A stretch of 62,366 nucleotides of DNA from Bacteroidales bacterium (GTDB lineage: Bacteria; Bacteroidota; Bacteroidia; Bacteroidales; JAFGHD01). Within the stretch, counting starts at the first letter, position 1, and the number at the start of each line of letters is the position of its first letter. Location: assembly GCA_016939365.1 (NCBI GenBank), contig JAFGHD010000161.1:1-62366 (forward strand), read 5' to 3'. The notes under the pieces were generated by a model, which saw nothing but the letters and a program-made list of their open reading frames with translations, searched no databases and had not been told where the DNA came from. Below are positions 9,896-23,804 of this stretch, piece after piece. A program made the translations under genes and the position numbers.

Positions 9896-12028
9896 TCAGC
9901 TCTTTTTTGCCGTATACTTAAGATTGAAGCCGCAAAAAACCATAACACCCGGCATGGGGTAATCATAATTGATCTCATAGGCCTGGTCCAGCAGGTTTTC
10001 CCCGTTCACGAACAGTTCCAGGATCCGGTTGACCTGATATCCGATCCGGCCGTTGAGCAAGGTATACTGTTCTCTGGTTACCGGGCTGGTCACTGTATAG
10101 AGGCCGGAGATATAGTGCACATTGAGATGCGCCTTAAGCTTGCGCCATTTATAGCTGCCGCCGGCATACAGGGAATGCTCGGGGGCCCCCGTCACCGGAT
10201 CTGCCATATGGAGCCAGGCATAACTGACCCTCAGCTCAAGGGGCTCCACCAGGCGGAGAGCTGCCGAAGCCTCCACCCCATGATGCCTGAACGTCCCGCT
10301 GTTCTCATAACGCACATCCGGGAACTGGCCGGTGATAAGTATCAGATCGGAGCCTTCGGCGAGGAAGCCGGTGAACTCAATGCTGAACCTGTTCCTGAGC
10401 AATCCCTGCACGAAGGTGCCTTCATAGGTCCACATCCGTTCGGGTCTCAGGGAAGCGTTGGCTGGGTTCCACATGTAAAGCTCCCGAATGGTCGGGCTCC
10501 GGAATCCTTTGGAAACGGAGGCCTTGACGGTAGTGTGCGGAGCGGGGCTCCAGGATACACCCCCATGGGGCATCCACTCCGGTGGAAAGAGACCGGAGGT
10601 CTGCAGTCGAAGACCGGCCGTCAGCGACACCTTCTCCCTGATTGTTTGCTGAATAAAGGTATAGATCCCGAACTCCGATAAAAGTGTGTCGGCAAACTCC
10701 ATGCCTTGCCCGTTCATGGCCAGGGTATTTTCGGCGAATCCTCCGTAGTTCTTGTATTCAGCACCCAAGGTGAGGGTGTTCCCGGTGAAAAGCCTCAGTC
10801 CCTGATAGGCGGATATCCCGGTGTTCCTGTCGCGTGAGTGAAATCCGTCATAAATCTCATGTTCCCCGAAATGGTGAAAGACAGATAATGTGCCTTCGGT
10901 TTTGTCTGAGCTGTTCTGAAGGGAAATGGCAGCCATGCCGCGGAGGATGTCCACCCAATGCTCCTGCATCAGGTATGAGGAATCGATCATCCGAACGGGA
11001 CCCGGATCGGTGGCCCTGAATCCTGCCAAGCTGACCTCGCCGTTCAGAGAGAACACCTCTGACAGGCGGGCATCTGCCTTGAAATAACCGTTGGTGATGT
11101 CGAAGCCTGAGTTCTCTCTGTGGCCGTTGGTCTGGTCGTGGTTCACCGACACGAGGACGCCGCCTTTTTTCGTCCTGCAGGCAGCATTGGCCATAGCCTT
11201 CCAGGTATCATACGATCCGTAGATTGCCCTGGCATGGGCTGTGAATCCTTCCCGTGCAGCTTTCCGGGTGATGATGTTGACCACCCCGCCCATGGCATTG
11301 GAACCATACAGGATGGAAGCCGGCCCCCTGATCACCTCGATCTTCTCAGCATCGGATGCGACATAGGCATCGGGGAGCGGATGACCGAACAGACCCATAT
11401 GCTGGGGATTGCCGTCGATGAGCACGAGCACCTGGGTATTCGGTGTACCGCCGATACCACGGATGCTGATGCCTCCGGCAGCGCCGGTGGCCACACCGAA
11501 CCCGGTCACGCCACGTTCCGTCACAAACACCCCGGGCACCCGTTCACTGATCACAGGCAGCAGATTCGATTCACCGGAATTTTCGATCTCCTCACGGCTG
11601 ATGGATATCACCGAAAGCGGCACCTGATCCCGCTCTGTTTCAATCCGGGTGCCGGTGACGACCACTTCTCCGGCCTGCTGGACATCCTCCTCCAGTTTCA
11701 GCGACAGGTCGGTAGGGCCGGTGCCGGTAATGTCACAACCAACCTCGAGGGTCGTATAACCCACGTAGCTGACCTTCAGCGTATACTTACCGGGGTATAA
11801 TCCCATAATCGTAAAACGTCCGAAACTGTCGGTCACCGTTCCCAGGGCTGTGGTCTTGACCACGATATGGGCTCCGGAAAGGGGCTTCCCGTCGGTAGCT
11901 GAGGTAACCGTACCCGTCAGTCCGGCTTCCTGCGCCCATACGGTCACCAGGAAACCCGATAATGCCACCGTAAGCAGCATGCGGCCGCTGAAAAAAAGTA
12001 TTACGTTTTTCATAATCGTGTTACTCAT
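9896..12028 (-). CDS. TonB-dependent outer-membrane receptor, probable nickel-complex uptake
   Basis: The protein of about 710 residues has a signal peptide ending near VTVWAQ, a carboxypeptidase-like beta domain (GTVTSATDGKPLSGAHIVV), a plug domain (ISIRGIGGTPNTQVLVLIDG, then IEVIRGPASILYGSNAMGG) and a 22-strand-type barrel. TonB receptors move scarce metal complexes across the outer membrane using energy from TonB-ExbBD. The ATG at 12028 overlaps the nikR stop as TGATG. An ATG at 12013 also fits and gives a neater signal peptide. The operator-like repeat at 11998-12024 covers this start. The substrate is inferred from NikR control and the permease, not from the receptor itself. Confidence 0.85.
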   Translation of the reverse strand: MSNTIMKNVILFFSGRMLLTVALSGFLVTVWAQEAGLTGTVTSATDGKPLSGAHIVVKTTALGTVTDSFGRFTIMGLYPGKYTLKVSYVGYTTLEVGCDITGTGPTDLSLKLEEDVQQAGEVVVTGTRIETERDQVPLSVISISREEIENSGESNLLPVISERVPGVFVTERGVTGFGVATGAAGGISIRGIGGTPNTQVLVLIDGNPQHMGLFGHPLPDAYVASDAEKIEVIRGPASILYGSNAMGGVVNIITRKAAREGFTAHARAIYGSYDTWKAMANAACRTKKGGVLVSVNHDQTNGHRENSGFDITNGYFKADARLSEVFSLNGEVSLAGFRATDPGPVRMIDSSYLMQEHWVDILRGMAAISLQNSSDKTEGTLSVFHHFGEHEIYDGFHSRDRNTGISAYQGLRLFTGNTLTLGAEYKNYGGFAENTLAMNGQGMEFADTLLSEFGIYTFIQQTIREKVSLTAGLRLQTSGLFPPEWMPHGGVSWSPAPHTTVKASVSKGFRSPTIRELYMWNPANASLRPERMWTYEGTFVQGLLRNRFSIEFTGFLAEGSDLILITGQFPDVRYENSGTFRHHGVEASAALRLVEPLELRVSYAWLHMADPVTGAPEHSLYAGGSYKWRKLKAHLNVHYISGLYTVTSPVTREQYTLLNGRIGYQVNRILELFVNGENLLDQAYEINYDYPMPGVMVFCGFNLKYTAKKS
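11998..12024 (-). promoter_or_regulatory. Candidate NikR operator at the start of the TonB receptor gene
   Basis: On the plus strand GTATTACG (11998-12005) and CGTGTTAC (12017-12024) are separated by 11 bases and form an imperfect inverted repeat, six of eight positions matching. Nearly the same 27 bases occur at 12431-12457 before nikR. Total length and outer GTA/TAC bases recall the 28-bp E. coli nik operator GTATGA-N16-TCATAC. The site overlaps the receptor's first codons, which is unusual. Confidence 0.55.
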
Positions 12029-12429
12029 CAATCTTTTACCGTCATAACCAGCTGACCGTGCTTGACTCCCTTGATGGCGATCAACCGGTCGGCGAGGCGT
12101 TTCAGGTCACCCGCCAGTCCCTTGACCGCAATGGTCTCAAGACAGTTGCTATGGTCCAGATGGACATGCTGCACTGACAGGATCAGGTCGTGAAATTCAT
12201 GCTGCACATCGGTTGAATGGCTCTGCAACTCCCTCTTGTGGTGGTCGTAAACCAGCACAATGGCACCCGCCACCTCCCGGTTGTCGCCCCACTGTTCGTC
12301 GACGACATACTTTCGGATCAAATAGCCGATGGCACGGGAACGGTTCGGGAAACGGTTCCTTTCCACCATCTCATCCAGATCCCTGAAGAGATCCTCCTCC
12401 AGCGACACACTGAAACGTTTTACCTGCAT
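12028..12429 (-). CDS. nikR: Nickel-responsive transcriptional regulator NikR
   Basis: NikR is a ribbon-helix-helix DNA-binding protein with a C-terminal ACT-like nickel-sensing domain. The first 45 residues fit the DNA-binding half (KRFSVSLEEDLFRDLDEMV and SRAIGYLIRKYV). The high-affinity nickel ligands of the E. coli protein, H76, H87, H89 and C95, align with H77, H88, H90 and C96 here. The 133-residue length is standard. It heads the operon and overlaps the next start by one base. A candidate operator lies two bases upstream of its ATG, so autorepression by nickel-loaded NikR is likely. Confidence 0.93.
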   Translation of the reverse strand: MQVKRFSVSLEEDLFRDLDEMVERNRFPNRSRAIGYLIRKYVVDEQWGDNREVAGAIVLVYDHHKRELQSHSTDVQHEFHDLILSVQHVHLDHSNCLETIAVKGLAGDLKRLADRLIAIKGVKHGQLVMTVKD

Positions 12430-12598: not shown

Positions 12599-14488
12599 AT
12601 GGCAAAACACCTCCGATACCATCATCTGTTGTTTTACCCGGGCGCCCTCTGCCTCTTGCTGCTGTTCCATAAGGAAGTGCATGGCCAGAATTTCCTCGAA
12701 CCCATCCCCGACTCATCACGCATCTATCAGTTCCGCCACGATTATGAAACACCTGAAGGCGAGGCATTCAGTACCATTGATACCCTGATCGGATCGGTAC
12801 ATACCTATGACCCGAAACTTCGGAATGGATTCCTTCCTGCATCCACCGGACCTATCGGCCAACCCTACAAGCCGCTGCTCCTCTCTCTCCCCTCCGCCGG
12901 ATTCAGTTTCAGACCGTCCCCCTTAGGAAACTATCTCTTCAGCAACGACTGCGTTCCCAGCTACCTTACAGGAAAACCCTTCACCCACCTGTTCTACATC
13001 ATGGGGCTGAAAAAAGAACAGAACCTTTCGATCGAACACTCCCAGAATGTTTTACCCAATGTGTCGGTAGGATTGAGCTTCAGACTGTCAGACTTTCCGG
13101 GCTACTATCCGCAGCAGGCCACTGAAAATAAAAACCTGAACATCAGGCTCCGTTACAAAACCGGTAACAACCGGTATGGCTTACAGACACACTACCTGCA
13201 CAACAAAATCAGGCTGAGAGAAAACGGTGGCATCCTGTACGACTCCATCTTCGAGCAAAATCTGGAAACCAGCCGGGACCGTTATGAGATAAGGCTTTCA
13301 GAAGCGATGAACCGTATCAGGGAAAACGGATATTTTCTGAAGCAGTATTTCAGGCTTGCCCGGCCAAAAACTGACACATCCGCTTCGAAAAGGATATTTT
13401 TCAGTCTTCCGGGCATGATTACGCACTCTGTGCTCATTTCAAGGCATTTTCATGTATATGAAGACGAGATGTCCGGGTCAGACACGGCATTCTATCCACA
13501 TAATTACTATTCATCAGCAACATCATATGATTCGGTATCCATCCGGATGATCGAGAACAGGCTTACCTGGACGAACATGGCTGCCGGTTCGGCAGAGCAG
13601 GTCATCGGCATCTCGGCCGGGCTGAGACACCAGTATGCCGAACTTTCCGGGTATATGCCCGTCAGTTATTTCAGGCTTTTCATCCCATTCATCACTTTGG
13701 GCATCGCTCCTTTCCACGGCCTGAATTTCGGATTTCACGGGGAGCACGTTGCCGGCGAAGGATTCGGGGGAGATTATGTATTGCAGGCAAACGCCGGATT
13801 GTCCGGAGATTTCGGGAAAATCACTTTTTCTTCTGAACTGACCGGGATATCTCCCGGCTATTTCTACCGGGAATATGCGTCCAATCATTACCGGTGGTCG
13901 AATGATTTCAGACGGGAATCATACATCACCCAGAACCTGGATTATTCCTGCCAGGGATGGCATGCACAACTGTCACATACAGAGATCCGAGACGCCGTAT
14001 ACCTGGATACACTGGCTCAGCCTGTGCAAAAAGACGGCAACGTGTCATACCTGAAGGCATACGTTGGTAAAAACATGGTATTCCGGAGATGGGGACTGGA
14101 TATCCGGCTGTACTGGCAGGATGCTTCTGATGATGAGATATTCCGTTTCCCGCAGTTCATGGCTTACGGAGGCCTTCACTATACCCGGGAATTATTCAGA
14201 CAGGCGTTACGTGTCAGAGCCGGCGCTGAGTGTTACTTTCACAGCGGCTATTTCGCCGATGCGTACACTCCCGCCACCATCTCATTTTACAGGCAAAACG
14301 TAAAACGTGTGGGTGAATACCCCTTCACCAACCTGTTCCTTACCCTTCAGATCAAGCGCTCCCGGATCTTCCTGAAATATGACAACCTCCTGTACCTCGC
14401 CGGCCAGTTCACCTATTATACTGTTCCGGACTACCCGTTGCAGGATGGCGGGTTCAGATTCGGGGTATCGTGGATGTTCTATGATTAG
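12599..14488 (+). CDS. Putative outer-membrane porin (Bacteroidota Porin_10-like)
   Basis: The 629-residue protein has an N-terminal signal sequence rich in leucine ending near KEVHGQ, then a long run of alternating aromatic/polar strands typical of a beta-barrel. It ends in an aromatic strand (RFGVSWMFYD). N-terminal features such as DTLIGSVHTYDP and GPIGQPYKPLL resemble the Bacteroidota putative porin family found next to envelope genes. No plug domain or TonB box is present. The gene stands alone, divergent from nikR, and its stop overlaps the stop of the converging gene by four bases. Substrate unknown; transport of a metal oxyanion is possible only by location. Confidence 0.65.
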   Translation: MAKHLRYHHLLFYPGALCLLLLFHKEVHGQNFLEPIPDSSRIYQFRHDYETPEGEAFSTIDTLIGSVHTYDPKLRNGFLPASTGPIGQPYKPLLLSLPSAGFSFRPSPLGNYLFSNDCVPSYLTGKPFTHLFYIMGLKKEQNLSIEHSQNVLPNVSVGLSFRLSDFPGYYPQQATENKNLNIRLRYKTGNNRYGLQTHYLHNKIRLRENGGILYDSIFEQNLETSRDRYEIRLSEAMNRIRENGYFLKQYFRLARPKTDTSASKRIFFSLPGMITHSVLISRHFHVYEDEMSGSDTAFYPHNYYSSATSYDSVSIRMIENRLTWTNMAAGSAEQVIGISAGLRHQYAELSGYMPVSYFRLFIPFITLGIAPFHGLNFGFHGEHVAGEGFGGDYVLQANAGLSGDFGKITFSSELTGISPGYFYREYASNHYRWSNDFRRESYITQNLDYSCQGWHAQLSHTEIRDAVYLDTLAQPVQKDGNVSYLKAYVGKNMVFRRWGLDIRLYWQDASDDEIFRFPQFMAYGGLHYTRELFRQALRVRAGAECYFHSGYFADAYTPATISFYRQNVKRVGEYPFTNLFLTLQIKRSRIFLKYDNLLYLAGQFTYYTVPDYPLQDGGFRFGVSWMFYD

Positions 14489-15375
14489 TTACCGGTGACG
14501 GCCAATCTGACCGGCTGCGAAAATGTCCCGTCTTCCGAAACAGAAACAATATAGTAGACCCCGTTATCAAGCCCTGTCAGGGACCACTGGAAACAGGTTT
14601 CCCGTGAAAAGCATGAACGTATCTTCTTTCCCTGAATATCCAAAAGCCACAGGGATTGAGGGATGTCGTTGAGCCTGATGTTCACGAAGGAAGTGGCCGG
14701 ATTGGGGAAAACGCTGAAAAATGCGGGAGCCTTGGGTGGGTGATATCCGGCCACCTTGGATCCTTTGATAATAATATTGTCTATCAGGGAAATACCGCTT
14801 TCATCTACCGGCAGACCGCTGATGTCTTCTTCTGAAGCCATCAGCCATCGCAGCTGCACAAGTCCCTCCGGATTATTGCACTCCGGGGGCAGCAGCAGGT
14901 CGGTCACACTCCCCAGTTCCCCCCAATCACTGTTGCACTGGATGACTCCGCCCGCAACATCCGTCCATTCCTCAACTGTCCCTGGAGGCAGTATCCTGAA
15001 CTGCAGTATAAAATCCCGTGGGCCGGGCAAATCAGGATCAGAACTCTGCCGTGATGATACCAGAAAATCCTGATATCCGCTACCATCGAAAGTGATCATC
15101 CAATAACGGTTTCCTGCACCCCCTTTCCATCCGGAGCAGGCAGCTGAAAAACTCACCGGTGTCAGTAATCCGGGCTGCATAAAGATCTGTCCGTAACTTC
15201 CTGAGGTGTCCGAATAACAAACCAGTTTTATCGCGGCATTTACATCCAGACCCAGGTCCGCGAAAACCGATTCCTCAGGGTGTTCATAACGGAAAGTCCA
15301 CCCTGCAATCGTATCCTGAGAAATCAAGGTGACGGGAATGATCCCCAGACATAAAATGATGACCCATGATTTCAT
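14485..15375 (-). CDS. T9SS type A-sorted secreted protein, paralogue of the 17562 gene
   Basis: The 296-residue protein starts with a signal peptide (MKSWVIILCLGIIPVTLIS) and ends with a type A sorting domain (FSVFPNPATSFVNIRL, then LDNGVYYIVSV), so it should be exported by the type IX system and anchored or released. The central region matches the protein at 17562-18443 at AGWTF, GY-D-LVSS, PGPRD, LPP-NNP and ESGISLIDNIIIKG, showing common descent. I start at 15375 because the signal peptide begins there; upstream in-frame codons are unlike protein. The function is unknown and no enzymatic motif is seen. It is divergent from wtpA. Confidence 0.75.
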   Translation of the reverse strand: MKSWVIILCLGIIPVTLISQDTIAGWTFRYEHPEESVFADLGLDVNAAIKLVCYSDTSGSYGQIFMQPGLLTPVSFSAACSGWKGGAGNRYWMITFDGSGYQDFLVSSRQSSDPDLPGPRDFILQFRILPPGTVEEWTDVAGGVIQCNSDWGELGSVTDLLLPPECNNPEGLVQLRWLMASEEDISGLPVDESGISLIDNIIIKGSKVAGYHPPKAPAFFSVFPNPATSFVNIRLNDIPQSLWLLDIQGKKIRSCFSRETCFQWSLTGLDNGVYYIVSVSEDGTFSQPVRLAVTGN

Positions 15376-15633: not shown

Positions 15634-16614
15634 ATGAAATTTTTTATCTCCACCGGATATTATTTCATTATTGCCTGTTTTCTGGCAGCGCTGACATGCT
15701 GTGATCCAGGCAGCTTGATAAAAAATGATGATCAGGGAAAGGTGATCGTTTTTCATGCAGGCAGCCTTTCAGTGCCTTTCAGTGAGGTAGCGGAAGCTTT
15801 CGAAAAGGAGCATCCGGGCATCGAGGTGCTCCTGGAGGGTGCAGGAAGCCGGGAATGTGCCCGGAAGGTCACCGAACTGGGCAGGCCGTGTGATGTGCTC
15901 GCCTCTTCCGATTATGCCGTCATTGAAGACATACTGATCCCCGGTCATGCTTCATGGTATATCGGTTTTGCCGGGAATGAGATGTGCATTGCCTTTAACG
16001 AAAGGTCTGTCTTTCATGAAAGGATCCATACAGACAACTGGTACAGGATTCTGATCAGCGATTCCGTTGTCTTCGGCCGGTCCGACCCCAACCTGGATCC
16101 CTGCGGATACCGCACATTGCAACTCTTTCAACTGGCCGGGGATTTCTATCAGATAAGAGATATTGCCGGGCAGCTTGCCGAAAAAAACCGGGAGATGATC
16201 CGTCCGAAAGAGGTAGATCTCCTGGCGATGCTCGAATCCAATACCATAGATTATATCTTTGTTTACAGGTCCATGGCAGAACAGCATGGTCTGAAATACC
16301 TCCGGCTTCCTGATGAGATCAACCTGGGTAAACCGGAAATGGCCGGTCGTTATGCCACTGCCTCGGTTCAGATATCCGGCAACGGGATCGGGCAGAAGAT
16401 TGAGGTAAAGGGTAAGCCTGCCTTATACGCGGTCTGCCTGATCGACCATGCACCTCATCGCGATGCGGCTCTTCAGTTCCTTAAATTCCTGCTGTCAACC
16501 GAAAAGGGACTTGCCATCATTAAAAAAAACGGTCAGCCGGTTCACATCACCCTCCCGGATAAATATACCGGTCAGGTTCCCCCGGAACTCATTAAAAAAA
16601 TACAGAATGAATAG
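15634..16614 (+). CDS. wtpA: Tungstate/molybdate ABC transporter substrate-binding lipoprotein WtpA
   Basis: WtpA captures tungstate or molybdate in the periplasm for the WtpBC channel. The 326-residue protein has a lipobox-like LTCC near residue 22, the oxyanion-binding start VFHAGSLSVPF, and the family signature RSDPNLDPCGYR (D151, D155). In archaeal WtpA/ModA an Asp in this motif and a Glu in FEYRS complete six-fold metal coordination. Here the second site reads IFVYRS, with V210 in the Glu position, so coordination may differ. Its ABC partners lie 5.4 kb downstream in the same transcription direction. Four other genes stand between them, which is unusual. Molybdate versus tungstate preference cannot be read from sequence. 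Confidence 0.87.
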   Translation: MKFFISTGYYFIIACFLAALTCCDPGSLIKNDDQGKVIVFHAGSLSVPFSEVAEAFEKEHPGIEVLLEGAGSRECARKVTELGRPCDVLASSDYAVIEDILIPGHASWYIGFAGNEMCIAFNERSVFHERIHTDNWYRILISDSVVFGRSDPNLDPCGYRTLQLFQLAGDFYQIRDIAGQLAEKNREMIRPKEVDLLAMLESNTIDYIFVYRSMAEQHGLKYLRLPDEINLGKPEMAGRYATASVQISGNGIGQKIEVKGKPALYAVCLIDHAPHRDAALQFLKFLLSTEKGLAIIKKNGQPVHITLPDKYTGQVPPELIKKIQNE

Positions 16615-17536
16615 CACCAGATCGCAGATCCTGTTGTGGAGTTTCCTTTGCATCCTTCTTTTGTACGGGGCAGTCTCGTGTACAAAGGATGACAAGGATT
16701 CCGTCCCACCTGCAATCATACTGAAAACCGGCGGCTACTATGCCCCGGACGGGGACACCGTGGAAGTGGGTGGTGCCATTATTTTTGGGATCGAAGCATG
16801 GGGCAGCGATGTCAACATCACAAACTTCACCATTAAGAAACTGTTACCTGACAAAAGCCATGTGACCATGATGGACACCGGGATGAATACGGCCAGCATG
16901 AATATTGAGAAAGTCTTTCATCAGAGCGTCGAGGACACCGCTATATGGAGTTTCACCGTGATGGACAGGAACAGGCTCTCATCCTCAGTCTCACTTACCA
17001 TATACAAAGATCCCAACTCCGCCTTCGGCGGGATCCATTTCTATCCTTCCCTGATCATGGGATACCAGGAAAATGCTGAATACGGTCATTTTCTTAATCC
17101 GTTCACAGGAAAAGTCTTTTTCCAGGATTCGGCAAGCCTTGCACCTGAAAACATGCATATACTGTGTTACTATATAGAAAGTGAAGGGCTTCCCTCACCT
17201 GTTTTGTCATCACCCGGTGAAATGGACAATTACAGTATCGAAGCCCAGACTTTCTACCCGGTTATTGAAGGCTGGTCCCCGCGGAGGTATACCAAATGGG
17301 ACATCAGCGTGGATGAGGATCCGGTCGCTGTGGATGATTACAACAATGCCTTCAACGACAGCCTCCTCATCGTCTCCTACCACGATGTGTGGGGAAAAAA
17401 GAAATTCAAATGGGCAAATGCCGGACGGGTGATCCCGTTTCTGACTGCAACCGGCAAATACGGCCTGATCAGGGTGATCCGGGCTGATCATGCGCCGGGC
17501 GGAATCATGGAAATTTCAGTTAAAATCCAACAGTAA
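16607..17536 (+). CDS. Lipoprotein of unknown function in the wtp operon
   Basis: I do not recognise a family. The 309-residue product has a lipoprotein signal ending GAVSC (C25), then a beta-rich region without clear motifs. The N-terminal part (IILKTGGYYAPDGDTVEVGG) resembles an immunoglobulin-like strand pattern. The ATG at 16607 lies inside the end of wtpA, overlapping by eight bases, so the two are translationally linked; a longer in-frame reading begins within wtpA and is unlikely. It may be an outer-membrane surface lipoprotein working with the TonB receptor two genes on, by analogy with SusD-like or hemophore-receptor partners. That is inference only. Confidence 0.65.
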   Translation: MNSTRSQILLWSFLCILLLYGAVSCTKDDKDSVPPAIILKTGGYYAPDGDTVEVGGAIIFGIEAWGSDVNITNFTIKKLLPDKSHVTMMDTGMNTASMNIEKVFHQSVEDTAIWSFTVMDRNRLSSSVSLTIYKDPNSAFGGIHFYPSLIMGYQENAEYGHFLNPFTGKVFFQDSASLAPENMHILCYYIESEGLPSPVLSSPGEMDNYSIEAQTFYPVIEGWSPRRYTKWDISVDEDPVAVDDYNNAFNDSLLIVSYHDVWGKKKFKWANAGRVIPFLTATGKYGLIRVIRADHAPGGIMEISVKIQQ

Positions 17537-17561
17537 CGCACAATCCCAAAAAATTTCTACT

Positions 17562-18443
17562 ATGAAAAAGATTATGGTGCTCACGGTACTTATTGCATGG
17601 GCTGTGCTCTCCACCACGGCCCAGACTACCCTTACCCTTGCGGGATGGACATTCCCGACTGGTATTGACACGGTCGACATCTATCCTGACATCTGCATCC
17701 CGGAGAACACCAACAAGTATCTCTCTTCCGAGGACACTACCGCATGGCCCAGCACAAACCTGAGGGATGTATATTTCACCGCAGGTGAAACCACTTTTGC
17801 TGCAACGGCAGACGGCTGGGAGAACGGGAAGGAATCCAAACTCTGGTCGATCAAGATCAAGGCGGAAGGATACAGCGATCTGATGGTATCTTCCAAGCTG
17901 AGCTCGGATGCCGTCAACCCCGGCCCGAGGGACTGGAAGATACAGGCGAGATTGAGCGGCGGGGACTGGGTGGACATACCGGGGGGAACCGTCACCTGTG
18001 CCGGGGACTGGACTACCGGAACCGTTGTGAACCTGGCGCTTCCTCCCGACTTCAACAATCCTTCCTCCTCGCTCTATATCAGATGGATCATGACCTCTGA
18101 TACCAGTATAGCAGGGGCATTGGTCGAATCAACCGGGATTTCCCTGATAGAGGATGTGATCATCACGGGTGTCACCTCCGCAGGAATCACAGAAACCTTG
18201 TTCGGGAACGCCTTTGACATCTACCCGAATCCATGCAGCAACGGGATAATAAACATCTCAGACAACAGAGGGGATATCACCGCATTGCACCTGTACAACA
18301 TCCATGGTCAGAATGCCGGAATATTTTATCTGAAAGGAAGCGGGAAGGTGTCGGTAGATCAACTGGAGACTGGCATTTACCTGGTCCGGCCCGGGAACCG
18401 GCAGGGTGATCTGGGTGCTCCGGTGAAACTGGTGATAGACTAA
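17562..18443 (+). CDS. T9SS type A-sorted secreted protein in the wtp operon
   Basis: The 293-residue protein has a signal peptide ending TTAQ, a central domain shared with the divergent gene at 14485-15375, and a C-terminal sorting domain (FDIYPNPCSNGIINIS, LETGIYLVRPG). It should cross the outer membrane by T9SS. Shared central motifs include AGWTF, DLMVSSKLSSD, NPGPRDWKIQAR, LPPDFNNP and STGISLIEDVIITG. Encoded between a lipoprotein and a TonB receptor, it could be a surface-exposed binding protein for the imported ligand. No known binding motif is visible. The start at 17562 begins the signal peptide, 25 bases after the previous stop. Confidence 0.72.
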   Translation: MKKIMVLTVLIAWAVLSTTAQTTLTLAGWTFPTGIDTVDIYPDICIPENTNKYLSSEDTTAWPSTNLRDVYFTAGETTFAATADGWENGKESKLWSIKIKAEGYSDLMVSSKLSSDAVNPGPRDWKIQARLSGGDWVDIPGGTVTCAGDWTTGTVVNLALPPDFNNPSSSLYIRWIMTSDTSIAGALVESTGISLIEDVIITGVTSAGITETLFGNAFDIYPNPCSNGIINISDNRGDITALHLYNIHGQNAGIFYLKGSGKVSVDQLETGIYLVRPGNRQGDLGAPVKLVID

Positions 18444-18531
18444 GCCTGAATTGCCACTGTCTTTCAGTCGGATCATACCGGGCCGTGATGATCCGTCAGA
18501 GGAATGCAGCGGCCCGTATTACAAGGGATGT

Positions 18532-20886
18532 ATGCCGAAACTGTTCCGTATCCTGGGGGTTATATTTCTTTTACCGCTGACGCTTTTATCTCAGGAGGAT
18601 CGGACCGGTGGAATCCGTGGATCCGTTGCCGACAGCATATCAGGCAGGGTTTTGACGGATGCCCACATCCTGATCGAGGGTCGCATTGAAGGCACTATCT
18701 CAGGAAAAGACGGAACATTCCGCATCAGTGGATTAGAGCCGGGTGAATATACCATTTCAGTGCGTTTTGTTGGATATCATGAATTCAGGCAAAATGTATG
18801 CATCAGCCCGAAAAGGCTCACCGATTTGAAGATCCTGCTTCACCCTCAGATATATTCTCATCCGGAGGTGACAGTAAATGCCGATATGCCGGATGAGCGA
18901 CTCGAACAGCCCATGCGGCTGGAGGTCATCCCTGCCGGCCGGATCGATGCATCCCCGGTTGGCAGTCTGCCGCAGATGCTCGAATATGTTTCCGGTGTGA
19001 ATATGAACAACACCCTGGGTATTTTTTCGAGCAGGACAGTGGTCACCCTGCGTGGATTGCCGGCCGACGAACAGTCACGGACACTCATCCTGATCGACGG
19101 CATGCCTTTGAACAAAACAGACGAAGGATCCGTCAACTGGAACATGATCAACATGCGAGAGATCGGAGAAGTGCGGATCACCAAGGGGCCCGGACCTGTA
19201 AAATACGGAAGCGGCGCCATGGGGGGAGTAATTGATATCATCACCCGTAAACCGGAAAAACCGATTGAGGGAAGCCTGCAGCTCGATTACGGAACATATG
19301 ACACATACGCCGCCAATCTGCACCTTTCCGGTATGAACGGAGACACTGCCAAAACCCGGAATCTCAACTGGTCCCTGACCGGTTTCGGAAGGAGCAGTGA
19401 AGGTTATGTCACTGTTCCGGATCAATACAGAACCGCAGGAGACACCATACTCGAACCCACCTACCTCAGGGAAATGAACACATCATTGACGGCCGGTTAC
19501 GATTTCGGAAACGGACATAACATCATTTTCAGGGGAAGGTTATATGACGACCGTCGCAGCAGCGGTGTCAGGGTTTTCGAGGACTGGGGGGCTTACCAGG
19601 ATCATGATACATACTATGGAATGGGTTCCTATTCCGGGAGGGGCCGATCCCTGAACTGGCAGGTCATCCTTTTCTGGCTCGACGAGTACTACAAAAGACA
19701 ATATGAGTTCATGAACGAGGGGGAATACCAGTTGTACCTGGTGGATGCAAGGAGACGCGACCGTGGCGGCGACATGAACATATCCTTCACGCCTGCAAAG
19801 GGACACCTCGTTTCGGCCGGTATCAGCCATAAAAGGGGAAGCGTAGACGCCTCCGACACCTATTACACCTCCACCGACATCATCAGCAATGCAGGCAAGA
19901 TGGATGTCAGTGCCATCTATCTTCAGGAGGAGACCTCCTTCATGGACGGCAGAATTATCATGAACATGGGCTTACGCTATGACTTCGCCACCTATTTCGA
20001 CGGATTATTCACCATTGAGGATCCCTCCTATTCCATCGGGTTCATCGAAGCATTCGAAAACAGGAATATGGAGACCAAACGATGGGATGCCTTATGCCCC
20101 CGGGCATCCATTCAGTATCACTTCAACCGGGAATGCCGGATATATCTTTCCGCAGCGAAGGGATTCAGGGCACCCATACTCGATGACCTCACCCGGACCG
20201 GCAAGAAGAAGGGGACCTTCAAAGTGGCCAATCCCGGACTGGGACCCGAACTGATCCATACTCTGGATGCCGGCGGCGACGTCACCCTGTTCCGCATCCT
20301 GTCGGCCAGCCTTTCGGCCTATTACAGCAACGGAAAGGATTTCATGTACTATTCCTCCACGGGGGATTCAGTAAATATGGGTTACCGGATTGCACCCGTG
20401 CTGAAAATGAAAAACATCAGCAACGTGGATGTTCGCGGCATTGAAGTGGATCTCCGGATGGAACCCATAAGGGATAAATGGTCGTTTTTCATCAACTATT
20501 CATTTGCCGGCGGACGGATCAGGGATCATGATGTGATCGATCCCGGCTCCGAGGAAGATCTTACGGGAAAATACCTGACCGACATCCCGGATCACAAGTG
20601 GGCAGGGGGAGCCACCTGGAACAACAGATGGATCAATACGACCGTCCTGTTCAGGTATATCGGGAAAAGATGGATCAATGACCTGAATGTCATCGATGAG
20701 GAATATTTACTGACAGACAGGTATGATGGCTATTCCACATGGAATGTCAGGATGGAAAGAAGGATCGGCAAACACCTTGCAATCCGGTTGACCATTGAAA
20801 ATATTTTTGATGAAATTTACATCGAGCAGAACCTGAACCAGTGTCCGGGCAGGTTTGTCATATTCTCGGCCCGGTTCAGTATCTGA
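18532..20886 (+). CDS. TonB-dependent receptor in the tungstate/molybdate operon
   Basis: The 784-residue protein has a signal peptide (MPKLFRILGVIFLLPLTLLS), a carboxypeptidase-like beta domain (GSVADSISGRVLTDAHILIEG), a plug (VVTLRGLPADEQSRTLILID, then EVRITKGPGPVKYGSGAMGG) and a long barrel ending in FVIFSARFSI. The start at 18532 is the ATG that begins the signal peptide; the frame opens 81 bases earlier with a TTG. It lies between wtpA and wtpBC in an uninterrupted same-strand run, so I infer it imports the oxyanion or a complex of it across the outer membrane. The receptor in the nickel operon is a different, shorter protein. Confidence 0.85.
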   Translation: MPKLFRILGVIFLLPLTLLSQEDRTGGIRGSVADSISGRVLTDAHILIEGRIEGTISGKDGTFRISGLEPGEYTISVRFVGYHEFRQNVCISPKRLTDLKILLHPQIYSHPEVTVNADMPDERLEQPMRLEVIPAGRIDASPVGSLPQMLEYVSGVNMNNTLGIFSSRTVVTLRGLPADEQSRTLILIDGMPLNKTDEGSVNWNMINMREIGEVRITKGPGPVKYGSGAMGGVIDIITRKPEKPIEGSLQLDYGTYDTYAANLHLSGMNGDTAKTRNLNWSLTGFGRSSEGYVTVPDQYRTAGDTILEPTYLREMNTSLTAGYDFGNGHNIIFRGRLYDDRRSSGVRVFEDWGAYQDHDTYYGMGSYSGRGRSLNWQVILFWLDEYYKRQYEFMNEGEYQLYLVDARRRDRGGDMNISFTPAKGHLVSAGISHKRGSVDASDTYYTSTDIISNAGKMDVSAIYLQEETSFMDGRIIMNMGLRYDFATYFDGLFTIEDPSYSIGFIEAFENRNMETKRWDALCPRASIQYHFNRECRIYLSAAKGFRAPILDDLTRTGKKKGTFKVANPGLGPELIHTLDAGGDVTLFRILSASLSAYYSNGKDFMYYSSTGDSVNMGYRIAPVLKMKNISNVDVRGIEVDLRMEPIRDKWSFFINYSFAGGRIRDHDVIDPGSEEDLTGKYLTDIPDHKWAGGATWNNRWINTTVLFRYIGKRWINDLNVIDEEYLLTDRYDGYSTWNVRMERRIGKHLAIRLTIENIFDEIYIEQNLNQCPGRFVIFSARFSI

Positions 20887-20913
20887 ACATAAAGATTACC
20901 AAACAGCAGCAAA

Positions 20914-21987
20914 ATGAAACGAATCCCCGTGAAATTCCTTTTGATGACCCTTCCGGTCTTCATCCTGGCATCATGCACACCGAAGGGTGGCGACGAAACC
21001 GAGCGGCTTCAACCCCCTCCGGCAGACACTTCGGATGCCACCAACTTCTTTTATGACAATGCCCCGACATATGAGCTACCCCTGGCGTCAGTGGTCGTCG
21101 AAGGGGAGGTGGAAAACCCGGGTATTGTCGACTTTCAGGTATTGCCTGTCCGTTCTGTGATCGTCAAGGAGACCCGGCTTGCGGAACAGGGCGACCTTTT
21201 CACAGGTGCATACCGCTATGACGGATACTCAATGAGCGACATCCTGGATCAGAGGATCATCAGAAAGAAAAATGCAGAGGAGTTCGAACCGGTCATCGAC
21301 CTCTTTGTAGTGATAGAAAATGAAAAGGGGGAAAGGGCCGTGATCAGCTGGGGAGAGATCTATTATCCAAACCACCTGCATGAGATCATCATTGCCCACC
21401 GGGTGATGCGGATTGTACCTTCCAAAACGCATGAACTATGGCCTCTGCCCGGGGAAAGCAAGCTTGTCGTGGGCGGCGATCTGATCACTGATCGCAATAT
21501 TTTATATCCGGTCCGACTCCGGGTCGTCTCACACCCCCGGTCATTCAGGACAGAGAAGGGCATAAAGCCCCTCTTCTCCCCGGAGATCAAGATTTTCACC
21601 GGCGATGATCAGATCGATACATGGACCGGCCTGCCGGATGATACACAGAAGATAACATACCGGAATATCTTTTACGGACGGGGACGAGGCATCCACAGCA
21701 CCACACCCTTTACAGGCTCCGTGCTGAAGGAGCTCTTACTGCCCCATTTTGGCATCAACGGAAAAAGTATCAGGGAAGGAGTGTTCCTTATAACCGCCGC
21801 AGACGGATACAGAGGCGTGTTTACCTTCAGCGAAATCATGAACCGTAACGATCAGGAGGAAACGCTGTTGCTTTGCAATCCGGAAGCAATGGATGACGGT
21901 ATCTTCAGAATATTCCCGGCAGGGGATTTCTTTTCCGACAGGGCCATCAAAGCCGTCACGGGTATTTATTTTTCCTACATCCCATAG
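20914..21987 (+). CDS. Lipoprotein with sulfite-oxidase-like (Moco-domain fold) repeats, no catalytic Cys
   Basis: A lipobox FILASC (C21) leads into two similar halves. Each has a strand plus a loop of the type seen in oxidoreductase molybdopterin-binding domains. The first runs VVVEGEVENPGIVDF to YRYDGYSMSDIL and RAVISWGEIYY. The second runs ITYRNIFYGRGRGIHSTTPF to FLITAADGYRGVFTFSEIM. The catalytic cysteine that ligates molybdenum in SUOX enzymes is not seen at the expected place, so this is probably a binding protein rather than an enzyme. It stands immediately before wtpB. A role in holding or stripping a molybdenum/tungsten cofactor or complex would fit but is inference. Confidence 0.6.
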   Translation: MKRIPVKFLLMTLPVFILASCTPKGGDETERLQPPPADTSDATNFFYDNAPTYELPLASVVVEGEVENPGIVDFQVLPVRSVIVKETRLAEQGDLFTGAYRYDGYSMSDILDQRIIRKKNAEEFEPVIDLFVVIENEKGERAVISWGEIYYPNHLHEIIIAHRVMRIVPSKTHELWPLPGESKLVVGGDLITDRNILYPVRLRVVSHPRSFRTEKGIKPLFSPEIKIFTGDDQIDTWTGLPDDTQKITYRNIFYGRGRGIHSTTPFTGSVLKELLLPHFGINGKSIREGVFLITAADGYRGVFTFSEIMNRNDQEETLLLCNPEAMDDGIFRIFPAGDFFSDRAIKAVTGIYFSYIP

Positions 21988-21997
21988 TGGAATCAGT

Positions 21998-22780
21998 ATG
22001 ACGGGTTTCAGGCATCAGACCAGGGAATGGCTGTTCGGACTTGTGGGAGGCCTGCTGTTGCTGTTTATCATCGCTCCCCTGGCCGGACTGTTTCTCAAAA
22101 CGACACAAACCGGTCTCTTTGAAGCAGCTTCTGATCCTGTGGTACAAAGGAGTATAGGAAGGACGCTTCTGATCTCCTTTCTGGGAACGATGGTCTTTTC
22201 CCTTCCGGCCATCCCGCTTGCCTGGCTGCTGGCCCGGAAAAGCTTCAGGGGAAGAACCATCATCAACGGATTGATCGATATACCCATCATCATCCCCCAC
22301 TCCGCTGCGGGTATTGCGGTACTGGGATTTATTTCCAGAGATTCGGCGGTAGGCAAGCTGGCCGGGGCTTTGGGGCTGAACCTGGTCGGCCATCCCACAG
22401 GCATCGCCCTGGCCATGGCCTTTGTGAGTATTCCCTTCCTCGTGAACGCAGCCCGCGACGGCTTCGCTTCCGTTCCGGAAAGGTATGAAAAGGCGGCGCT
22501 GAACCTGGGCGCCAGCCCCCTCTTTGTGTTCTTCACCATATCAATGCCCCTGGCCTGGAAGAACATCCTCACGGGACTGATCCTTATGTTCGGCAGGGGA
22601 ATGAGCGAGTTCGGAGCCGTAGTGATCATCGCCTACCACCCGATGATCACACCGGTGCTCATCTATGAACGATTTACCAACTTCGGGCTGAAGTATGCCC
22701 AACCTGTTTCTGCTGTTTTCATCATCATCTGCCTTGTGTTGTTCATTATGCTGAGACTGTTGTCACCCAAACGCAAATAA
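21998..22780 (+). CDS. wtpB: Tungstate/molybdate ABC transporter permease WtpB
   Basis: The 260-residue inner-membrane permease has about six transmembrane segments. The conserved EAA loop contacting the ATPase reads EKAALNLGASPLFVFFTISM near residue 160, and MSEFGAVVIIAYHP follows, typical of the CysT/ModB/WtpB group. I start at 21998 (MTGFRHQTREWLFGLVGG); a longer frame reaches back into the previous gene. It ends one base before the wtpC start codon. With WtpA it forms the inner-membrane part of the uptake route. Confidence 0.88.
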   Translation: MTGFRHQTREWLFGLVGGLLLLFIIAPLAGLFLKTTQTGLFEAASDPVVQRSIGRTLLISFLGTMVFSLPAIPLAWLLARKSFRGRTIINGLIDIPIIIPHSAAGIAVLGFISRDSAVGKLAGALGLNLVGHPTGIALAMAFVSIPFLVNAARDGFASVPERYEKAALNLGASPLFVFFTISMPLAWKNILTGLILMFGRGMSEFGAVVIIAYHPMITPVLIYERFTNFGLKYAQPVSAVFIIICLVLFIMLRLLSPKRK

Positions 22781-22781
22781 A

Positions 22782-23804
22782 TTGCTGCATCTGTCAGAAA
22801 TAACGAAAACGCATACCGGTTTCAAACTCAACGGCATCAGCCTCGAAGTCGGACAGGGGGAATATTTCGTCCTTCTGGGCCCGTCAGGCTCCGGAAAGAC
22901 CCTGCTGTTCGAGATCATTGCAGGGATGGTACGACAGGACAGCGGGAAGATACTCCTTGGAGGAAGGGATATCAGCCATTCCGCTCCGCAAAAACGAAAA
23001 ATCGGCCTGGTTTTCCAGGAAAATGCATTGTTCCCCCATCTGACGGTACGGAAAAATATTGCCTACCCATTGAGGATTCAGGGACTTGAAAAACACACGA
23101 TCCGGGAACGGGTGCACCGGCTTGCCGAAGAATTCTCCGTGGCGCATCTGCTTGATAGAATGACCGGTTCCTTATCAGGCGGAGAGAAACAAAGAGTTTC
23201 CATAGCCCGCTCCATCGCACACAACCCGGAATGCCTGCTTCTCGACGAACCCTTGTCTTCACTCGACACGGTTCTCCGGGAAGAGATCCGGAACCTCATG
23301 AGTGAAGTGAATAAAAAAGGCATGACCATTCTTCACATCACACATGATCACCGGGAAGCCTTTTACCTTGCCGACCGGATAGCGGTCATCCGTAACGGGA
23401 CGATCATCCGGTGCGACCGGAAAGAAGAGATCCGTAAAAACCCGGGATCGCGTCACGTTGCCGAACTCATCGGATACAGGAATATTTTCACGTACCGGCA
23501 CTCGGTCACCGGCCTGCAGATCGAGGGAGTGACCGTTCCATTTGAATCATATCGCGGGCCCGGACAAGGACAGCTGATCATTCCCGACGAAGCCGTTATT
23601 CTGGGTACAGAAGGAAAATCACCGGCAATACATCATGCAATTTCCGGGATCATTCTCGAGACTGCGAGCCTTCCGGGATATACCGAAATGTTGGTTGATA
23701 TCGGGATCAGGATCAGGAAAACGGCACAGATTACCGCACGGTCATTTCACAGCAAAGACAGAGTTACTGTTTTTCTCGATCCGGCCATGTTTATCTTCCT
23801 ATAG
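22782..23804 (+). CDS. wtpC: Tungstate/molybdate ABC transporter ATP-binding protein WtpC
   Basis: All ATPase motifs are present: Walker A GPSGSGKT (33-40), Q-loop LVFQENALFPHLTV, signature LSGGEKQR, Walker B CLLLDEPLSSLD and the switch His in HITHDH. The C-terminal part from about residue 235 is a TOBE/MOP-like regulatory beta domain (ISGIILETASLPGYTEMLVD), which in related transporters can bind the oxyanion. The frame opens with TTG at 22782, one base after the wtpB stop. No ATG precedes the conserved HLSEITKTHTGF strand, so a TTG start is likely. Confidence 0.87.
   Translation: MLHLSEITKTHTGFKLNGISLEVGQGEYFVLLGPSGSGKTLLFEIIAGMVRQDSGKILLGGRDISHSAPQKRKIGLVFQENALFPHLTVRKNIAYPLRIQGLEKHTIRERVHRLAEEFSVAHLLDRMTGSLSGGEKQRVSIARSIAHNPECLLLDEPLSSLDTVLREEIRNLMSEVNKKGMTILHITHDHREAFYLADRIAVIRNGTIIRCDRKEEIRKNPGSRHVAELIGYRNIFTYRHSVTGLQIEGVTVPFESYRGPGQGQLIIPDEAVILGTEGKSPAIHHAISGIILETASLPGYTEMLVDIGIRIRKTAQITARSFHSKDRVTVFLDPAMFIFL

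Follow-up and report, generated by a model that had tools for sequence, protein, structure and literature searches.

A seven-gene cluster in Bacteroidales predicted to couple a TonB-dependent receptor to tungstate and molybdate import

The subject of this analysis is a cluster of seven genes in a 62,366-nucleotide stretch of DNA from a Bacteroidales bacterium (contig JAFGHD010000161.1 of assembly GCA_016939365.1), hereafter the window. All seven lie on the + strand in the order wtpA, lipo1 (encoding a lipoprotein), a gene for a cargo protein of the type IX secretion system (T9SS), a TonB receptor gene, a gene for a lipoprotein with a sulfite-oxidase-like fold (the suox-like protein), wtpB, and wtpC. 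We consider it likely that this operon provides TonB-driven uptake of tungstate or molybdate, either free or chelated, that feeds the ATP-binding cassette (ABC) importer WtpABC. The case is built on the gene content, on an order that is conserved in relatives, on the linkage there to ModE-like genes, molybdenum cofactor (Moco) genes, and genes of the aldehyde:ferredoxin oxidoreductase (AOR) family, and on co-occurrence with WtpA and AOR.

Gene order, neighboring genes, and co-occurrence

A profile search with the alignment of the suox-like family, run against a genome collection described as 84,980 species, returned 256 encoding stretches, and the best 80 were kept (12 of them shorter than 8 kb); as these loci favor close relatives and were found via the fifth gene of the cluster, counts among them represent neither an unbiased sample nor population frequencies. 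The initial annotation had suggested looking for the seven-gene order in other genomes and had regarded its absence from all relatives as contradicting a shared function. It is clear from our results that the order is shared, as the identical contiguous arrangement is found in 7 of the 80 loci (L129, L160, L187, L188, L193, L197, and L199), including one from the same genus as the window (L129) and one labeled Draconibacterium orientale (L187). The gaps in these seven loci range from -47 to 92 bases, each open reading frame (ORF) being counted from its earliest start codon, which may overstate overlaps. An eighth locus, L166, keeps the order with one extra gene after wtpA. The unnamed order loci (L062-L121 and L202-L218) partly coincide with the named loci (L122-L201), so the two sets were never pooled in counts; the seven locus pairs that were checked, including L062/L129, L075/L177, L076/L186, and L072/L170, are identical DNA.

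Genes of tungsten and molybdenum (W/Mo) metabolism adjoin the cluster in relatives. In L160, wtpA comes after a ModE-type gene (PF00126; TIGR00637 at 73.8 bits, under its cut-off of 98.5), and wtpC is followed by genes for MoeA, MoaA, MoaC, and a MOSC/MoCF_biosynth protein. By BLAST to the L160 proteins, wtpA is immediately preceded by a ModE-like gene in 5 of the 7 loci with the full order (L197 starts inside wtpA and cannot be judged, and L129 has none in its stretch), and moeA-moaA-moaC-MOSC is found downstream in 6 of the 7. Across the 80 loci, a ModE-like gene is present in 16, every one of them a wtp locus. In at least 8 Bacteroidales genomes, picked by eye, wtpA and an AOR gene are separated by 2.2 to 8.3 kb. 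The receptor module also occurs without wtp, directly before moeA-moaA-moaC in L205 and beside a ModE-like gene in L207 (L209 is similar, with a receptor fragment at the contig end). In two Elusimicrobia loci (L179 and L192), the suox-like gene is accompanied by a TupA-type binding protein (best model for that of L179 NF041772, at 213.6 of 400 bits), an ABC permease, an ATPase, Moco genes, and AOR. Among loci with wtpA on the + strand, inspection by eye of a simple inverted-repeat scan revealed no operator common to the regions ahead of that gene. Separately, a gene for L-glutamate-gamma-semialdehyde dehydrogenase (L160:919-2637, TIGR01236) adjoins the modE-wtp cluster in several loci by BLAST.

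That the four inner genes arrived by chance or as a lineage-specific insertion, with no shared function, strikes us as highly improbable. The position of the receptor module does vary (before, inside, after, or away from wtp), and the sampled genomes are related, but the linkage recurs in several orders, and the co-occurrence described below is far from that of the control. A different explanation, which we hold to be unlikely, is that the receptor serves another micronutrient of the same anaerobic tungsten-enzyme metabolism, such as a chelate of iron or heme or a sulfur compound, and that its place in the operon reflects nothing more than joint regulation. The best NCBIfam models for the receptor are heme/hemoglobin receptors, albeit far under cut-off (162.6 of 316.85), and more than half of the receptor loci examined have no W/Mo gene nearby (counts below). 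However, the receptor is tightly inserted between wtpA and wtpB in 8 loci, the window counted, a more distant receptor type is inserted likewise in L118, and elsewhere there are ModE-like and Moco neighbors. The order in L118 is modE-wtpA-(246 aa)-(191 aa)-lipoprotein-receptor-wtpB-wtpC; in L108, the more distant receptor type (27-29% identical) follows wtpA with a lipoprotein of its own. In L177 and L186, the interval from wtpA to the suox-like gene holds a receptor but no lipo1. With regard to these variants, we also observed that a module of the 246-aa protein, the 191-aa protein, a lipo1 relative, and the second receptor type occurs in or near wtp or suox loci in L118, L170, L108, and L097. 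The 246-aa protein resembles methanogenesis marker 11 (TIGR03280, E 9e-9, under cut-off), the 191-aa protein of the L118-type module has no family match, and L186 carries a 4Fe-4S domain protein (PF12801, L186:8571-9971) between the receptor and the suox-like gene.

Returning to import of W/Mo as the shared function, co-occurrence was assessed in 149 genomes of the order from 132 genera (G000-G148), later extended to 198 (G000-G197). From a list of 50 genomes, a cut at about 440 bits gave the receptor set of 28, and from a list of 69, a cut at E 1e-90 gave the lipo1 set of 26, both cuts being chosen after seeing the list; the suox-like set of 42 includes a short weak match (G145) and three frames with an internal stop (G187, G191, and G048), and the ModA set comprises the 29 genomes above cut-off, not the 64 with any match. 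The receptor ortholog is accompanied by WtpA in 22 of 23 genomes (n = 149, p = 2e-11) and by AOR in 27 of 28 (n = 198, p = 3e-11), whereas relatives of a nickel-type receptor in the window, used as the control, are found with WtpA in 4/26 and with AOR in 5/26 (n = 99). Of 34 genomes with the suox-like gene, 33 also have WtpA (n = 149, p = 6e-19); in the larger sample, 40 of 42 have AOR (n = 198, p = 8e-17), but no more than 4 of the 42 have ModA. The suox-like and WtpA genes lie no more than 10 kb apart in 17 of the 33 genomes that have both. Strong lipo1 matches coincide with WtpA in 23/23 genomes (n = 149), or in 23/24 at a slightly looser cut, the exception being G134 (3.5e-87). TupA was not found in the 198 Bacteroidales genomes, by a search whose control matched 2 of 14 known genomes, none above cut-off. 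At the level of neighborhoods, 12 of 26 receptor loci have W/Mo genes no farther than 10 kb from the receptor, whereas this is true of 1 of 20 control loci (p = 0.003). The fetched stretch holds a lipo1 relative in 24 of the 26 compared with none of the 20; this comparison covers 26 of the 27 non-window receptor genomes (G075 C123 was left out) and the best 20 of 25 non-window control matches. Because conserved order, W/Mo neighbors, and co-occurrence unlike that of the control all point the same way, co-function of the operon, which the initial annotation had offered as an inference, is now supported by comparison. As to the control itself, the window encodes NikR and then a TonB receptor at 9896-12429 (-), likely a nickel uptake pair, and a nikR relative is found in the fetched stretch around the control receptor in 6 of the 20 control loci.

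Several results weigh against this reading. The co-occurrence statistics ignore shared ancestry. The receptor ortholog is absent from 29 of the 51 genomes with WtpA (n = 149), and in 11 of the 80 loci the stretch contains wtpA-suox-wtpB-wtpC but lacks a receptor; such receptor-free genomes and operons imply that the receptor is optional. Among the receptor loci, 14/26 have no W/Mo gene within 10 kb, one control locus (L223) has a relative of the nickel-type receptor beside moeA-moaA-moaC-MOSC, and in G134, which carries AOR, the receptor, and a relative of lipo1, there is no match to WtpA, ModA, or TupA. A search of the window's own genome, run without a positive control, yielded no ModE relative. 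Across the 80 suox-like loci, wtpA or wtpB is present in 39, the receptor in 22, and both in 17, which leaves 41 with no linked wtp gene; genes for a GntP permease or a MOFRL glycerate kinase occur in 20 of the 80, none of them with wtp (the families were named on L153, and such loci include L153, L154, and L201). The latter loci could presumably be explained by a non-phosphorylating sugar-acid route with a tungsten enzyme; otherwise, the suox-like family would hold a second role. A neighbor resembling KDPG aldolase, named by eye only, was also seen in the suox loci of this sugar-acid type.

Importer subunits, surface proteins, and the receptor

The initial annotation had described seven genes on one strand with gaps of at most 90 bases and one 8-base overlap, with wtpA separated from wtpBC by four genes. 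The ORF calls agree with the former (the largest gap is 88 bases, and the sole overlap, between wtpA and lipo1, is 8 bases), and the coordinates and family models agree with the latter. WtpA (15634..16614, +; PF13531), the tungstate/molybdate-binding protein of the ABC importer, scores 300.8 bits against TIGR03730, above the cut-off of 242.75, and 329.9 bits against the longer model NF003196, under its cut-off of 355. The permease gene wtpB (21998..22780, +) follows the suox-like gene after 10 bases, and the ATPase gene wtpC (22782..23804, +), with a TTG start, follows wtpB after 1. The best NCBIfam models are NF040839 for WtpB (255.8 bits, under the cut-off of 340; PF00528) and NF040840 for WtpC (276 bits, under the cut-off of 440; PF00005), and the domain scan for WtpB used the ORF from an upstream start at 21893. 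The probable assignment of these two subunits thus draws on the best-scoring model and the gene context. Rfam families were not found in the window. Promoter-like sites in it are rarer than in shuffles (6 compared with 8.7) and terminator-like sites slightly commoner (12 compared with 8.3), and no argument is based on them.

The lipo1 gene (16607..17536, +), which overlaps wtpA by 8 bases, encodes a lipoprotein whose mature N-terminus, C-T-K-D-D, meets the C-X-K-(D/E)2 signal for export of surface lipoproteins in Bacteroidota (PMC5080379). The strict motif is present in 8 of 20 members of the lipo1 family, the window counted, and 15 of the 20 have at least two acidic residues at +2 to +6. In the suox-like family, among the 26 rows of 34 with a lipobox cysteine, the strict motif is absent (0/26), and two or more acidic residues are found in 2/26. 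With the export signal on lipo1 and none on the suox-like family, the predicted topology would place lipo1 at the cell surface and the suox-like protein in the periplasm. No Pfam or NCBIfam family, SusD included, matches lipo1 at E 0.001. Its predicted structure (predicted local distance difference test, pLDDT, 82.3) returned four fold matches at E <=0.001 whose TM-scores are low (0.23 to 0.34, relative to the query), the top one an S-layer protein; the later rows are mostly antibodies, and the matches are weak and mainly of the immunoglobulin type.

The T9SS-exported protein (17562..18443, +; 25 bases after lipo1) ends in a Por_Secre_tail sorting domain that is above cut-off for both PF18962 (29.6 bits) and TIGR04183 (28.9 bits). 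The gene for the outer-membrane receptor (18532..20886, +) follows after 88 bases, counted from an ATG start, although a TTG at 18451 is possible, and the protein contains a Plug domain (PF07715, 73 bits), a beta-barrel (PF00593, 131.5 bits), and CarboxypepD_reg domains (PF13620/PF13715). A second T9SS-tail protein is encoded divergently from wtpA at 14485..15375 (-), counted from the putative start that gives a signal peptide. It is 32% identical to the T9SS protein of the operon, its tail is just under the cut-offs (Pfam 26.9 of 27 and NCBIfam 22.1 of 23), and no such protein was seen in the same-genus locus L062. It is possible that this protein is an extra surface component of the uptake route, and its gene, being divergent from wtpA, may use the control region of wtpA. 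Also upstream in the window is a Porin_10 protein (PF14121) at 12599-14488 (+), a relative of which is directly upstream of wtpA in L062.

The suox-like protein

The initial annotation had assigned a sulfite-oxidase fold to the fifth protein (20914..21987, +; 27 bases after the receptor gene), and structure prediction agrees, though the window protein has no Pfam family and no NCBIfam family at E 0.001. PF00174 was detected in 2 of 28 family members, at a best E of 0.084, and the family profile gave nothing usable against sequences from the PDB (best E 0.75). An AlphaFold2 model built from 34 family members reached a pLDDT of 87.5 and a predicted TM-score (pTM) of 0.83. With this model, the top three Foldseek matches are PruR pterin-binding proteins (probability 1.00, E 4e-3 to 7e-3), and nothing at E <=0.001 came from Foldseek by itself. 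VIA-align matched it to sulfite dehydrogenase 2blf (Z 11.6 over 133 residues, root-mean-square deviation 2.8), to SoxCD (Z 11.5), and to PruR structures (Z 9.6 to 11.0 overall). As PruR aligns separately to both halves, at Z 11.0 on residues 223-354 and 10.7 on 58-205, the protein is predicted to consist of two tandem sulfite-oxidase/PruR-fold domains, at about residues 56-206 and 223-355. Structural rows from rank 32 onward (Z <5, Wza and staphylococcal proteins) were dismissed as common arrangements.

Beyond the lipobox, no cysteine column is conserved in the family alignment; the next-best column, near the C-terminus, has cysteine in 17 of 34 members, and the window protein has none there. 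Lacking a conserved metal-ligating cysteine, the suox-like protein is probably not a normal enzyme of the sulfite-oxidase type. In 6 of the 7 full-order relatives, it carries a signal peptide with no lipobox cysteine and is thus probably soluble. The suox-like gene is kept with wtp where the receptor is absent, which suggests that its product works with the ABC importer in the periplasm.

The likeness to PruR raises the alternative that the receptor imports a pterin or a pterin-bound metal (molybdopterin, a tungsten-pterin, or a breakdown product), with the suox-like protein as a periplasmic pterin binder and WtpABC supplying metal only. PruR, which is the top Foldseek match and aligns to either domain, is a pterin binder without the Moco cysteine (PMC13259868), and Moco-synthesis genes adjoin the cluster in relatives. 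A common fold, however, says nothing of the ligand, sulfite dehydrogenases match equally well, and the suox-like gene keeps company with ABC importers for oxyanions (wtp in Bacteroidota, the TupA type in the two Elusimicrobia loci) even where there is no receptor. We therefore regard pterin import as decidedly unlikely.

A proposed import chain and related systems

For import of the oxyanion or its chelate, which we prefer, we infer transport itself, the substrate and its chemical form, any preference for tungsten over molybdenum, the topology, and the following hand-over steps. Extracellular capture of the oxyanion or chelate would fall to the T9SS-exported protein together with lipo1 on the cell surface, and these would pass it to the receptor, which, energized by TonB, would move it across the outer membrane, much as BtuG and BtuB handle vitamin B12. 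Once in the periplasm, the imported species may be bound by the tandem suox-like protein, which would either deliver it to WtpA or free the oxyanion from its ligand. WtpBC would then carry the oxyanion into the cytoplasm, where AOR-type tungsten enzymes and molybdenum enzymes could receive the metal in their pterin cofactor.

The linkage with AOR argues for tungsten as the metal. WtpA, though, takes both tungstate and molybdate, and the window's own genome has AOR as well as a PF20256 Mo-cofactor domain protein, so the metal may be either of the two; the same genome has no ModA above cut-off and one PF00384 protein above cut-off. It is conceivable, though we think it doubtful, that the operon is a dedicated tungsten route, in which ligated metal (a chelate or pterin complex) arrives via surface capture and the cysteine-less suox-like protein strips or shuttles the ligand before WtpA. 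If so, the sulfite-oxidase fold would here be a W/Mo carrier and not an enzyme.

All three subunits of the WtpABC importer are represented in the window, with WtpA above the TIGR03730 cut-off, but the genes are split by four others for outer-membrane, surface, and periplasmic proteins, and WtpB and WtpC are under the equivalog cut-offs. The BtuB-BtuG-BtuH system of Bacteroides (PMC10404256) similarly has a TonB receptor, a surface lipoprotein, and an extra surface binder, in loci with an ABC importer; lipo1, however, has no detected known family, and the genes linked in the window concern W/Mo rather than cobalamin. PruR (PMC13259868) shares with the suox-like protein a sulfite-oxidase fold without the Moco cysteine, whereas the suox-like protein has tandem domains, is a lipoprotein in the window, and is linked to oxyanion importers.

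The initial annotation knew of no described TonB operon of this composition, and searches of an open-access library, in which subscription papers are mostly absent, brought up no title or abstract on a TonB operon for tungstate or molybdate. Among the papers found, two cases come nearest. In Pseudomonas aeruginosa (PMC11734730), molybdate is delivered via an outer-membrane protein, IcmP, but IcmP uses a ModA exported by the type VI secretion system (T6SS), and does not form an operon with WtpABC and a T9SS protein. In Acidithiobacillus ferrooxidans (PMC2621215), a proposed Fe-Mo cluster joins TonB-type receptors with predicted iron/molybdenum ABC binding proteins, but it belongs to another phylum, has other gene content, and its receptors are predicted for siderophores. 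In PMC3400609, the mention of tungstate concerns ABC transporters, and a term search found no molybdenum or tungsten receptor in PMC12914433 and PMC5343134.

As judged from sequence and predicted structure, a system of TonB receptor, lipoprotein, and ABC importer is of a known type, while the predicted substrate class would be new and a carrier with the sulfite-oxidase fold unusual. Passage of tungstate and molybdate across the outer membrane is usually left to porins. If the active route proposed here is real, tungsten and molybdenum would join the list of TonB substrates, and a function would be provided for two protein families, lipo1 and the suox-like family, for which neither Pfam nor NCBIfam has a model that matches the window protein. 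It would also point to a way in which anaerobic Bacteroidota possessing AOR-type enzymes could compete for a metal that is very scarce.

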